Source: Gammaproteobacteria bacterium | GTDB taxonomy: Bacteria > Pseudomonadota > Gammaproteobacteria > Thiohalomonadales > Thiohalomonadaceae | Length of the DNA stretch: 46,445 bases | NCBI GenBank assembly: GCA_015231435.1 | Contig: JADGBN010000010.1 | Span: 1 to 46,445 of the forward strand | Reading direction: 5' to 3' | Part shown: positions 1 through 45,040 of the stretch, one piece after another | Position numbering within the stretch: the first letter of the stretch is position 1 | Layout of the letters: each line of letters starts with the position of its first letter | Program-made: the position numbers and the translations under genes | Notes under the pieces: generated by a model | Told to the model about the DNA's origin: nothing | Database searches by the model: none | Seen by the model: the letters and a program-made list of their open reading frames with translations, nothing else

Positions 1-127
1 CGCAGGTGAGCTGGAGCCAAAACCAGTCAGGAACCCTTTCGTGGCTGCGCGAAGCGAGCCGTTCACTGGTCGAGGCGATTAAAGACGTTAAACATCTACG
101 CAAAAACTTTACCATCTATGCCCACTC
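1..127. repeat. Exact 127-bp copy of an internal segment (assembly overlap)
   Basis: Bases 1-127 are identical to bases 7671-7797, which lie inside the Na/Pi cotransporter gene, and diverge at base 128 (g against c). The identity is perfect, covers an arbitrary piece of coding sequence with no inverted ends, and stops at exactly 127 bp, a standard maximum k-mer of short-read assemblers. I infer an assembly-graph overlap rather than a biological duplication. The cyaA reading frame runs into this block and takes its last codons and stop from it. Confidence 0.9.
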
Positions 128-4900: not shown

Positions 4901-5806
4901 TTACGCTGCCAATAACTGCCGCATCACCTGCAAACTCTGCGCCCCATACCCCCCCGACACCCCATGCTCCTCAAACATCAAGTGGTGATTAAGCAGATGG
5001 TAGAGGTTATACAGCCGCTTGCGCTGTTGATAACCCGGCGCTAATGGCCATGCCTGTTGGTAGGCCTGATAAAACTGCGGGGGAAAACCACCAAAAAGCT
5101 CACTCATAGCGAGATCTGCTTCCCTGTCACCGTAATAGCAGGCCGGATCAAAAATAACCGCCGCGCCATCACTTGCAGGCGCCATAAAAGCAACATTTCC
5201 TGACCAGAGATCGCCGTGCAGCAGGGAGGGTTGGGGCTGATGCCCCGCCAAGAGTTGCGGTAACCGCTGCAGCAGCTGCGCCCCCTGCTGCGCCAAAGCG
5301 CTCCCCGTTAACTGGCGCAGCTGCGGCAACAAACGCTCTTCGCGCCAAAAATCAGACCAATTCTGATGCCAGCGGTTCGCTTGCGGCGATGATCCGATGG
5401 TGTTGTCACCATGCCAGCCAAAGCGGTCACTGGTGATGCGGTGCAGCGCCACTAACGCCTGCGCCAGACGGAGATAATCCCCCTGTGACGTTAAATCTAG
5501 CCACTCCATAACCAGATAGGCACGCCCGCCCAAACGACCAACGGTGATCGGTAACGGCAGACGCAGCTGCGGACACACTGCCAATGCCCGTAACCCCGCC
5601 AGCTCGGCACGCAGCATCGCGAGCCGCTCGGCACGATTCAGCTTAACAAAAAAATGACGCACCCCGTCGCTTAAGCGATAACTCTGGTTAATTGAGCCGC
5701 CAGCGACGCTGCGCACGCTCAGCTCTACCGGGTTGACCGCAAAAGGGCTGGCAGTCGCCTCACCAATCACCTCTGCAATGGCTTGCCAAAACTGTTGATC
5801 GTCCAC
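4901..5806 (-). CDS. Fructosamine kinase-family protein (YniA-like)
   Basis: A kinase with the aminoglycoside-phosphotransferase fold related to fructosamine-3-kinases and E. coli YniA. These phosphorylate sugar adducts on proteins or small metabolites; the physiological substrate here is unknown. Visible motifs are GGSINQSY (nucleotide-binding loop), FVKLN (lysine), the catalytic HGDLWSGN near residue 197 and FDPACYYGDREADLAM (metal-binding aspartate). The ORF track extends to 5863, but GTG at 5806 has a GGAG Shine-Dalgarno 9 bp upstream and gives 301 residues, near the family length, so I prefer it. The gene is convergent with the acyltransferase gene. Confidence 0.85.
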   Translation of the reverse strand: MDDQQFWQAIAEVIGEATASPFAVNPVELSVRSVAGGSINQSYRLSDGVRHFFVKLNRAERLAMLRAELAGLRALAVCPQLRLPLPITVGRLGGRAYLVMEWLDLTSQGDYLRLAQALVALHRITSDRFGWHGDNTIGSSPQANRWHQNWSDFWREERLLPQLRQLTGSALAQQGAQLLQRLPQLLAGHQPQPSLLHGDLWSGNVAFMAPASDGAAVIFDPACYYGDREADLAMSELFGGFPPQFYQAYQQAWPLAPGYQQRKRLYNLYHLLNHHLMFEEHGVSGGYGAQSLQVMRQLLAA

Positions 5807-6030
5807 TTTTACTCTCCAGCTTAATCCGCGTTCACAACTTAACTTATCACTTACACACAGCACATCAGAGAGTTAGCGCCAAATCACCCAAGTTAGTCAG
5901 CACTCTGTTGCTGGCACCGAGAAAACAGATGTAAGAGACTGATTTTAAATAAGTTACCAGATATGTTCAAAATTTGGCCAATCTAACTCAAACCCTTGCA
6001 GGGTGCCAGTTAATAGCACTTACTCACCCA

Positions 6031-6065
6031 CTATCCACAAAGTTATCCACAGCTTCTGTGGGTAA
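6031..6065. promoter_or_regulatory. Cluster of three DnaA boxes
   Basis: Three matches to the DnaA box TTATCCACA lie within 35 bp: CTATCCACA (6031-6039, 8 of 9), TTATCCACA (6043-6051, perfect) and, inverted, TGTGGGTAA (6057-6065, 8 of 9). An IHF-like sequence follows 18 bp later. Clusters of this density are known from replication origins and from DnaA-titrating or reactivating loci such as datA and DARS. The sequence cannot tell which applies; neighbouring genes are not those usually found beside oriC. Confidence 0.55.
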
Positions 6066-6078
6066 CTCTATCTCTTAT

Positions 6079-6096
6079 TGTGAGATCAATCACTTA
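6079..6096. promoter_or_regulatory. CRP-like site overlapping an IHF-like site
   Basis: TGTGA-N6-TCACT at 6079-6094 matches 9 of 10 bases of the CRP core TGTGA-N6-TCACA. The overlapping GATCAATCACTTA (6084-6096) matches 12 of 13 positions of the IHF consensus. It lies about 275 bp from both flanking start codons, so control of either gene by CRP is uncertain. Proximity to the DnaA boxes is the more notable context. Confidence 0.35.
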
Positions 6097-6234
6097 TCAG
6101 GTCAATCGCACCCGAGGCGCGGATCACCTGACTTAAATCAAATCCATCAATGTTTAACGCTTGCCCTCTCTATGAATGAAGCATAAAATCGGTGTGACAA
6201 AAATATGATAAAAATATTACCGTCGATTAACTAC

Positions 6235-6325
6235 GTAACCGTTCAGACGCCTTGCTTTTTTACCCTCACCCCAACCCTCTCCCGAGGGGAGAGGGGGCAA
6301 AAGTGGTGGGGGTCTGAACGGTTAC
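6235..6325 (+). mobile_element. IS66-like MITE, copy 1, with 8-bp target duplication
   Basis: A 91-bp element with terminal inverted repeats GTAACCGTTCAGACGCC and GGGGTCTGAACGGTTAC. It is flanked on both sides by TTAACTAC (6227-6234 and 6326-6333), an 8-bp target-site duplication. Internally it carries the GC-rich palindrome CCCTCTCCCGAGGGGAGAGGG and encodes no protein. GTAA termini with 8-bp duplications are characteristic of the IS66 family, so this is probably a non-autonomous derivative. Copies 2 and 3 are at 37196 and 44951. Confidence 0.85.
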
Positions 6326-6370: not shown

Positions 6371-8191
6371 ATGTCATACCGTAAACTATTTCTTATAGCC
6401 ATTCTCTCAGTACTTGGTTACGGCTTCTGGGTTAGCCCCGATTTTAAGATGATCGCTGCGGGAGTCGCTATCTTTCTTGCCGGTATGCTCTCGTTAGAAG
6501 AGGGGTTTCGCGCCTTTACCGGCGGCATGCTGGAGCAGATGCTGCAACGCACCACCGACAAGATGTGGAAGAGCCTCACCTTTGGCATCATCTCCACCAC
6601 CATTATGCAGTCGAGTTCACTGGTATCGGTCATTACCATCTCCTTTCTCAGTGCCGGCCTAATTGGCTTGGGAGCAGGTATTGGCATCATCTTTGGCGCC
6701 AATATCGGCACCACCACCGGCGCTTGGTTAATCGCAGGCTTTGGTCTTAAGGTCGATATTGCCGCCTACGCCATGCCGATGCTGGTTTTTGGTGTCATTC
6801 TTGTTTTTCAAAGCGCCAAATCACTTAAAGGCATCGGCTCTATTCTTATCGGCCTCGGTTTTCTCTTTCTCGGCATTCACTACATGAAAGATGGCTTTGA
6901 TGCCTTCCGCGATACCCTTGACCTTGCCGCCTATGCGATGACAGGTTTTTGGGGGCTGATTGTCTTTACCCTGTTTGGTATGGCGGCAACGGTCATTATG
7001 CAATCAAGCCACGCCACCCTGGTACTCATTATTACGGCACTCGGGGCAGGGCAGATCACCTATGAGAATGCCTTGGCACTGGCGATTGGCGCCAATATCG
7101 GCACAACCATTACCGCAATTATTGGCGCCATGAGTGCCAACGAACAGGGCAAACGCCTTGCCGCCGCGCACCTTATCTTTAACGTGGTCACCGGCATAAT
7201 CGCCATCACCTTTATCGGCCAGTTCCGCGATGCCGTGGACTTTACCAGTGCCGCCGTCGGCATTGCCGACAATGATTACACCCTCAAGCTTGCGGTCTTT
7301 CACACCATCTTCAATCTGGTCGGAGTGATGGTCATGCTCCCCTTCACTGATCAGCTGCAAAAATTTCTGGTTGCTACCTTTAAGCGTCCAGAGATCGCCA
7401 CCAGCAAACCACGCTATCTTAACAACGCCTCGGCCGAGTTTCCCGATGCGGCGGTTAGTGCACTGCGTCAGGAGTGCGGCCACCTCTATGAGAATGGTCG
7501 CGATCTAATTATGCGCAGCCTGCTGTTAAAACCCGCTGACCTTCAACCCGACGCCACCCTCTCGGCCATTAGTCAGCGTAAAAGCCCCGGTGAGGACTTC
7601 GACTTTGATACGCTCTATCAGCAGCAGATTAAAGATCTCTACAGTGCTATTATTGAATTTATCTCCAAAGCGCAGGTGAGCTGGAGCCAAAACCAGTCAG
7701 GAACCCTTTCGTGGCTGCGCGAAGCGAGCCGTTCACTGGTCGAGGCGATTAAAGACGTTAAACATCTACGCAAAAACTTTACCATCTATGCCCACTCCAA
7801 CAACGCCCATATTCGTCAGGAGTACATGGCGATTCGTGAGCAGATCGCATCTGTTTTACAGGAGATGGAAGAGATCCGTAGCAATGAGGATGATGATCTG
7901 GGTATTCTTGCCCTCGATCAGTTACGGGTTCAGATTGACGAGGCGGATGATCACCTCAATCAACAAATTGACACCCTGATTCGAGAAGGTAAAATATCCC
8001 CACAAATGGGTACTTCACTGATGAACGATACCAGTTATGCTCATGATATTGCCACCAAGCTGATAGCGGTCGGCAGTTCACTCTTTCGTGCCCCCGACCC
8101 GGGCATTACCAGCGTTGAGTATGCCCTGTCACTGGATGATGATGAACGTCACGCGCTTTCAGAAAAGCCGGAAAAAAATAGAGATCAATAG
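6371..8191 (+). CDS. Na/Pi cotransporter family protein with PhoU-like tail
   Basis: An inner-membrane sodium-dependent phosphate transporter of the NptA/PNaS family. The membrane part (about residues 5-340) contains the duplicated family signatures: QSSS at 80-83 with GANIGTTT at 109-116, then a second QSSH and GANIGTT repeat. The soluble C-terminal part (about 360-600) is helical and resembles PhoU, as in other long members. At 606 residues it is close to the long-form family size. The start follows AAGGGATTCGCC. Bases 7671-7797 of this gene recur exactly at the left edge of the window, which I read as an assembly effect. The next gene, a small basic protein, follows after 41 bp and may share the transcript. 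Confidence 0.88.
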   Translation: MSYRKLFLIAILSVLGYGFWVSPDFKMIAAGVAIFLAGMLSLEEGFRAFTGGMLEQMLQRTTDKMWKSLTFGIISTTIMQSSSLVSVITISFLSAGLIGLGAGIGIIFGANIGTTTGAWLIAGFGLKVDIAAYAMPMLVFGVILVFQSAKSLKGIGSILIGLGFLFLGIHYMKDGFDAFRDTLDLAAYAMTGFWGLIVFTLFGMAATVIMQSSHATLVLIITALGAGQITYENALALAIGANIGTTITAIIGAMSANEQGKRLAAAHLIFNVVTGIIAITFIGQFRDAVDFTSAAVGIADNDYTLKLAVFHTIFNLVGVMVMLPFTDQLQKFLVATFKRPEIATSKPRYLNNASAEFPDAAVSALRQECGHLYENGRDLIMRSLLLKPADLQPDATLSAISQRKSPGEDFDFDTLYQQQIKDLYSAIIEFISKAQVSWSQNQSGTLSWLREASRSLVEAIKDVKHLRKNFTIYAHSNNAHIRQEYMAIREQIASVLQEMEEIRSNEDDDLGILALDQLRVQIDEADDHLNQQIDTLIREGKISPQMGTSLMNDTSYAHDIATKLIAVGSSLFRAPDPGITSVEYALSLDDDERHALSEKPEKNRDQ

Positions 8192-36320: not shown

Positions 36321-37199
36321 ATGAGTCAACATCCCCTGATATTGAACTGTGGCGGACGTCAGCTTAATCTGACGACGCCACAGGTGATGGGGATTATTAA
36401 CGTCACTCCGGACTCCTTCTCCGATGGCGGTCAATATCAGCAACTGGAGAGTGCGCGTCGCCATGCTGCGGCAATGGCAGAAGCGGGCGCCGCAATGATT
36501 GATATTGGTGGCGAATCGACCCGTCCAGGCGCTGCCGCAGTATCACTTCAGGAGGAGCTTGATCGCACCCTACCGGTCATTGAGGCAATACACGCCAGTT
36601 GTGATCTGCCGATCTCCATTGATAGCAGCAAACCTGCCGTGATGCGTGCCGCTGCCCAGGCTGGCGCAGGATTTATCAATGATATTAATGCCCTGCAGGC
36701 TGAGGGTGCCCTGACGACTGCGGCGCAACTGCAACTACCCGTCTGTCTGATGCACAAACAAGGGACGCCGCACACCATGCAGCAGGGCCCTCACTATGAC
36801 AATGTCGTTAGCGAAGTGCAGCAGTTTCTCGCTGCGCGTCTGCAAGCCGCCCTAGATGCAGGCCTTTTGCGGCAACAAATACTCCTTGACCCCGGCTTTG
36901 GCTTTGGCAAAAGCGTTAAACACAACCTCACCCTAATGCAGCAGCTGGCTACCTTAAATGAGTTAGGTCAGCCGCTACTCATCGGCATTTCGCGTAAATC
37001 GATGCTTGGCGCGGTTCTTGACCGCCCCGTCAACGAACGTCTCTACGGCGCCATCACCCTAACCACCTGGGCGCTACTGCAGGGCGCAAAGCTCATTCGC
37101 AGCCATGATGTGGCCGCTACGGTTGATTGTCTAAAAATGCTGCGCGCCCTGCAAGAGAACCGCTGCGACACGGTCATCGCAACCACCCCATCATCGTAA
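36321..37199 (+). CDS. folP: Dihydropteroate synthase
   Basis: Joins p-aminobenzoate to the folK product to make dihydropteroate, the target of sulfonamides. It has the family signature IINVTPDSFSDGG near residue 28, then IDIGGESTRPGA, ISIDSSKPAVM, and LDPGFGFGKSVKHN with the later GISRKSMLG. Length is 292 residues, slightly longer than E. coli. The stop codon TAA (37197-37199) belongs to the GTAAC terminus of the MITE inserted at 37196, and the last coding bases are part of its target duplication, so the C-terminus has been altered by the insertion. Confidence 0.93.
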   Translation: MSQHPLILNCGGRQLNLTTPQVMGIINVTPDSFSDGGQYQQLESARRHAAAMAEAGAAMIDIGGESTRPGAAAVSLQEELDRTLPVIEAIHASCDLPISIDSSKPAVMRAAAQAGAGFINDINALQAEGALTTAAQLQLPVCLMHKQGTPHTMQQGPHYDNVVSEVQQFLAARLQAALDAGLLRQQILLDPGFGFGKSVKHNLTLMQQLATLNELGQPLLIGISRKSMLGAVLDRPVNERLYGAITLTTWALLQGAKLIRSHDVAATVDCLKMLRALQENRCDTVIATTPSS

Positions 37200-37286
37200 C
37201 CATTCAGACGCCCTGCTTTTTTACCCTCACCCCAACCCTCTCCCGAGGGGAGAGGGGGCAAAAGTGGTGGGGTTCTGAACGGTTAC
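37196..37286 (+). mobile_element. IS66-like MITE, copy 2, with 8-bp target duplication
   Basis: A 91-bp copy of the element at 6235, with a few differences (GTAACCATTCAG on the left; GGGGTTCTGAACGGTTAC on the right). It is flanked by CCATCATC on both sides (37188-37195 and 37287-37294), a perfect target-site duplication. The left terminus gives folP its stop codon. The element separates folP from glmM, whose start follows 33 bp later. Confidence 0.9.
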
Positions 37287-44861: not shown

Positions 44862-44950
44862 TCCCCACTGGCCTCGGAAAATAGGTAGTAGCGTTTGACA
44901 CCCTGCTGTTTTTAGTCGAAGATTAACACAGTGTAGTGGTTCCCCGACAG

Positions 44951-45040
44951 TAACCGTTCAGTCCCCCACCACTTTTGCCCCCTCTCCCCTCGGGAGAGGG
45001 TTGGGGTGAGGGTAAAAAAGCAGGGCGTCTGAACAGTTAC
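44951..45040 (-). mobile_element. IS66-like MITE, copy 3, reversed, with 8-bp target duplication
   Basis: A 90-bp copy in reverse orientation relative to copies 1 and 2, from GTAACCGTTCAG to CTGAACAGTTAC. It is flanked by CCCCGACA (44943-44950) and CCCCGATA (45041-45048), an 8-bp target duplication with one substitution, so it is probably an older insertion. It ends 21 bp before the start of the next gene. The rest of the 200-bp gap holds no clear gene. Confidence 0.85.

Follow-up and report, generated by a model that had tools for sequence, protein, structure and literature searches.

Background

Two DnaA-reactivating sequences are described in Escherichia coli, DARS1 and DARS2, and it is from work on this species that the exchange of ADP for ATP on DnaA is known (PMC5742627, PMC4245941, PMC8682772). 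The spacing of the three DnaA boxes is equal in both and box I opposes boxes II and III (PMC5742627). DARS1 is active in vitro without additional factors (PMC5742627); IHF and Fis are required by DARS2 (PMC4245941). DnaA occupies the boxes of DARS1 and of the DARS2 locus in ChIP-seq of E. coli, two boxes 3 bp apart form a preferred binding unit for it, and it regulates genes such as nrdA and polA (PMC11317965). Conservation of DARS2 has been described for E. coli-proximal species only (PMC4245941, PMC8682772, PMC5742627).

We have analysed a stretch of 46,445 nucleotides from a gammaproteobacterium (contig JADGBN010000010.1 of assembly GCA_015231435.1), which we call the window. It contains an element which, judging from its sequence, is very probably a DARS2-type DnaA-reactivating sequence. 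Its features are given in Table 1. A DNA similarity search against E. coli genomes gave no match.

Table 1. Features of the DARS2-type element, its neighbours and the tandem pairs of elements; positions are those of the window unless another locus or contig is named
Feature	Position	Strand	Remarks
Fructosamine kinase gene (PF03881)	4901..5863	-	lies on the IHF side of the element; transcription is directed away from it
Complete DARS2-type element: arms for IHF and Fis, core of DnaA boxes	5929..6067	+	profile R1
Candidate IHF site TAAGAGACTGATT	5932..5944	-	1 mismatch to the consensus YAANNNNTTGATW; 99 bp ahead of box III
Candidate Fis site GTTCAAAATTTGGCC	5965..5979	.	perfect to GnnYAnnnnnTRnnC; 14/15 to GNTYAAWWWTTRANC
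Conserved CAATCTAAC motif	5979..5987	+	overlaps the Fis edge; consensus CAATNTAAC at -52..-44
DnaA box III CTATCCACA	6031..6039	+	1 mismatch
DnaA box II TTATCCACA	6043..6051	+	perfect
DnaA box I TTACCCACA	6057..6065	-	inverted, 1 mismatch; orientation rule as in E. coli DARS1/2 (PMC5742627)
Possible second IHF-like site GATCAATCACTTA	6084..6096	+	1 mismatch; weakly supported
Na/Pi cotransporter gene	6371..8191	+	neighbour on the core side, so far in this genome only
Tandem element pairs	L230 3550 + 4015; G013:C45 43256 + 43640; G006:C84 170867 + 171021

The DnaA-box core

The first-pass annotation had pointed to three DnaA boxes in 35 bp, one perfect and one inverted, in a gene-free gap between two metabolic genes. 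Both observations hold: the boxes are there, arranged as box–3–box–5–inverted box (9-3-9-5-9, positions 6031-6065), and the gap between the fructosamine kinase and the Na/Pi cotransporter genes has no open reading frame of at least 80 amino acids. Single boxes with one mismatch are not above chance in the window (34 seen, 28 expected). The cluster was absent from simulations which preserved the neighbour-base composition, both from 400 windows of 46 kb and from 20,000 intergenic stretches. When both gaps were left free (0-15, 0-15), a triplet was found in 56 of 94 genomes of the class, essentially one per family; the backward control gave one match. At all matched places except one the spacing was 3/5.

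The cores of E. coli DARS1 (TAATACACA-TGG-TTATCCACA-GGAAT-AGTGGATAA) and DARS2 (TTCTTCACA-ACT-CTATCCACA-GAAAA-GGTGAATAA) have spacing and orientation identical to the core of the window, whose boxes are nearer consensus than those of DARS2. The E. coli DARS2 locus (L032) has two triplets of the 9-3-9-5-9 kind, at 1636-1670 and 1952-1986, 316 bp apart, and both are DnaA-bound in ChIP-seq (PMC11317965). We take the first one as the DARS2 core because it has an IHF pair 3 bp apart which matches the published IBS1-2; the second, which would place IHF on the other side of the core, was rejected by the profile described below and by the paired IHF sites.

The window also has a REP-like inverted repeat (CCCTCACCCCAACCCTCTCCC...) at 6234-6325, 37195-37286 and 44949-45040. 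The genome has at least 10 copies of it, and it also occurs in family relatives. In a search with Rfam the window gave sub-threshold microRNA models only, mostly over this repeat, which causes most of these weak matches.

The IHF and Fis arm

When 94 loci of the class were aligned on the core, conserved columns appeared far upstream. They correspond to an IHF and a Fis site, whose distance to the core is fixed within about 1 bp across dozens of families. The IHF consensus is found within one mismatch at -103..-95 in 61 of the 94 loci (controls about 1.3 of 94) and is perfect in 30 of them, at -99/-98; its distance is -99 in the window and -97..-100 across the class. The relaxed published consensus of Fis is perfect at exactly -66 in 42 of the 94 loci, against a mean of 0.18 per position, and within three mismatches it is present there in 65 (controls about 1.9). 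The CAATNTAAC motif follows Fis at -52 in the class alignment. Fourteen named GTDB loci were fetched separately, about five of which share genomes with the discovery loci; all of them have IHF within two mismatches at -99..-97. Extra conserved bases are also apparent between Fis and the core, in two places (-27..-20 and -11..-3, counted from box III; CGnGG..T, TT...CnCA); they are possibly weak DnaA boxes.

The element covers about 140 bp, approximately 5929-6067, and the interval 5940-6235 proposed in the first-pass annotation has to be shifted: the core lies inside it, the element extends further to the left, and the right part, from about 6100 to 6235, is outside the conserved element. The IHF-like site of that annotation is probably the one at 6084-6096. 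A match within one mismatch at +50..55 occurs in 9 of the 94 class loci (control mean 0.7), and the site just left of the proposed interval is much better conserved.

We derived from the alignment a profile based on sequence only, R1, with 144 positions and 77 training sequences. It was trained on loci of the kind that it then finds, and the scores of training loci are partly by construction; this is the case for the window copy (74.8 bits, E 1.2e-20 genome-wide), because it is one of the 77 training rows. E. coli DARS1 reaches 34.3 bits and is aligned end to end at full length. Unlike the window, it lacks, at the conserved positions, both an IHF match with up to one mismatch and a match to Fis. 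The DARS2 core with the IBS1-2 pair is also aligned end to end, with 20.2 bits. The double DnaA boxes of E. coli (polA, purH, nrdA) share with the window two boxes 3 bp apart; the polA site gives a partial match of 20.4 bits (positions 66-127) that includes neither the inverted box nor the IHF arm. R1 alone therefore fails to separate the E. coli sites, as DARS2 and the polA double box score nearly the same.

DARS2 and the window share an IHF site on the side of box III, a Fis site near it and an intergenic location. The genome of the window encodes DnaA and candidates for the other proteins which such an element would need, with an 89-aa Fis-like protein and four genes of the HU/IHF family; it also encodes Hda. 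The order of the sites is different. In E. coli DARS2 it is core, IHF (-87, two sites) and Fis, with its sole perfect consensus at -125 (core - IBS1-2 - FBS2-3), whereas in the window Fis (-66) lies inside IHF (-99), with no perfect match to the Fis consensus beyond IHF. For this reason we call the element a variant. Its IHF distance is 12 bp longer, about one helix turn, and its neighbours are a fructosamine kinase and a Na/Pi cotransporter gene instead of mutH and rppH. The three-box core with the spacing of DARS1 and DARS2, box I opposed to II and III, together with IHF and Fis at fixed distances and their conservation throughout the class, bears out the earlier description of the site as DARS-type.

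The same annotation had offered datA as an alternative. A datA-like site, which would titrate DnaA or promote ATP hydrolysis with IHF, is also made up of DnaA boxes and IHF, and high-affinity boxes in several copies would indeed titrate DnaA. However, it is DARS that is characterized by an inverted third box at a spacing of 5 bp and by a conserved site for Fis. E. coli datA has no inverted box at that place, its R1 score is low, and on the core matrix it obtains 13.5 where the window obtains 53.4. A set of boxes with a single IHF site and no inverted third box is not what the window contains. We consider this identity improbable.

Distribution in related genomes

R1 matches 218 of 299 species genomes of the phylum (E <= 0.001), another class included, although the weaker matches may be plain double boxes, as the score of E. 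coli polA suggests. In our own tally from the match table about two thirds of the genomes of the same class reach E 1e-9. Because only loci with a strict core pattern entered the alignment, degenerate copies are under-counted. Chromatiales, Methylococcaceae and Ectothiorhodospiraceae MAGs are among the GTDB names of the close matches. In the other class there is one family with 1-9 copies of the element; eight loci from it have IHF within two and Fis within three mismatches, at fixed places. In some genomes tandem pairs are found, with the elements at most a few hundred bases apart (Table 1).

In the GTDB family of the window a copy is found by R1 in 19 of 20 genomes, among them all 16 of good quality. 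The only genome of the same genus (72% complete) gave no copy with R1, and the element is missing from the 1.1 kb which its contig has upstream of the gene for fructosamine kinase. The assembly which contains the window is 94% complete; one copy was found in it by the profile search.

Neighbouring genes and position in the chromosome

The fructosamine kinase gene lies within 4 kb of the element in 13 of the 20 family genomes, always at the IHF side and pointing away; in one of them it is a gene fragment at the contig edge only. In 20 of 80 loci of the class box I is followed after 0-130 bp by the start of priA, which has the same direction. Relatives with complete genomes have more than one copy each, at distances from dnaA of 75 kb to about 1 Mb, for example 137 kb and -75 kb in one genome (G008), +254 kb and -975 kb in another (G053). 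The copies near priA, in these two genomes and in G038, are about 140-255 kb from dnaA, and thereby closer to the origin than either DARS of E. coli. Some relatives have the core near dnaA, where the DARS of E. coli are not located, and this counts against the DARS reading.

These neighbours suggest another reading, in which the element would be the promoter region of the adjoining gene, fructosamine kinase here and priA elsewhere, under the control of DnaA, IHF and Fis. It is upstream of the kinase in the window and directly upstream of priA in the loci mentioned above; a promoter-like pair on the minus strand (5970-5942) overlaps the arm, and the regulation of nrdA and polA offers a precedent (PMC11317965). 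Yet the same rigid array adjoins unrelated genes throughout the class (priA, polA, ksgA, rimO, hemJ and others) and is present in 1-8 copies per genome. In the genome of the window priA is on another contig and the element has remained. The neighbours vary and the element is constant, which upholds the earlier remark that the neighbouring genes do not explain it; we regard the promoter reading as unlikely.

Still less credit can be given to the idea that the inverted boxes merely form a hairpin, for example a transcription terminator. Boxes II and I do make a 12-bp stem with a loop of 3 nt, and a T-rich stretch comes after it (6041-6067), but box III, IHF, Fis and their fixed distances are also conserved, the letters of the DnaA boxes themselves are largely invariant in the class alignment, and in the window neither flanking gene is read into the stem on its T-rich side. 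A replication origin, which the first-pass annotation had also suggested, is the least credible reading, be it chromosomal or that of an integrated element. AT-rich flanks combined with sites for DnaA, IHF and Fis typify oriC too, but dnaA is on a separate contig (C157), no initiator gene adjoins the element, and the complete relatives have multiple and distant copies, whereas oriC would be found once per chromosome and, in this group, close to dnaA or mnmG.

A possible mechanism

If the element is a DARS2-type sequence, its way of action can be outlined by analogy with E. coli biochemistry, from which we infer the binding of DnaA, IHF and Fis, the nucleotide exchange and the effect on initiation. 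Boxes II and I, face to face, would hold two molecules of ADP-DnaA whose AAA+ domains meet head to head. The binding would be secured by box III, which follows 3 bp behind box II, because DnaA favours pairs of boxes 2-3 bp apart. IHF would bend the DNA about 90 bp away, with Fis sitting between the bend and the core, and the arm could then fold back onto the DnaA complex, so that the bound ADP is loosened. DnaA would be released empty and take up ATP, which would provide more ATP-DnaA for the following round of initiation at oriC. In its details the mechanism may deviate from that of E. coli, in which the essential Fis sites of DARS2 are beyond IHF and not inside.

Significance

These elements may represent a previously undescribed, ancestral class of DARS: a rigid IHF-Fis-core array of about 140 bp, in 1-8 copies per genome and preferentially placed before priA, which would predate the split between Gammaproteobacteria and the other class. 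E. coli DARS1 and DARS2 would then be degenerate descendants, one of which lost the arm while the other moved Fis outside. We give this proposal an even chance of being right. In open-licence papers we found nothing on such an array beside priA or outside the relatives of E. coli; the term undescribed is provisional, as the literature search covered papers of this kind only.

The function of DARS has so far been worked out in E. coli. Since the array can be recognised in most of this class and also in a second one, it becomes possible to test whether the recharging of DnaA at a DNA site is a general and ancient part of the cell cycle. The inner position of Fis and the link with priA are concrete features which can be tested, and profile R1 can be used for annotating such sites in genomes that have not been studied.
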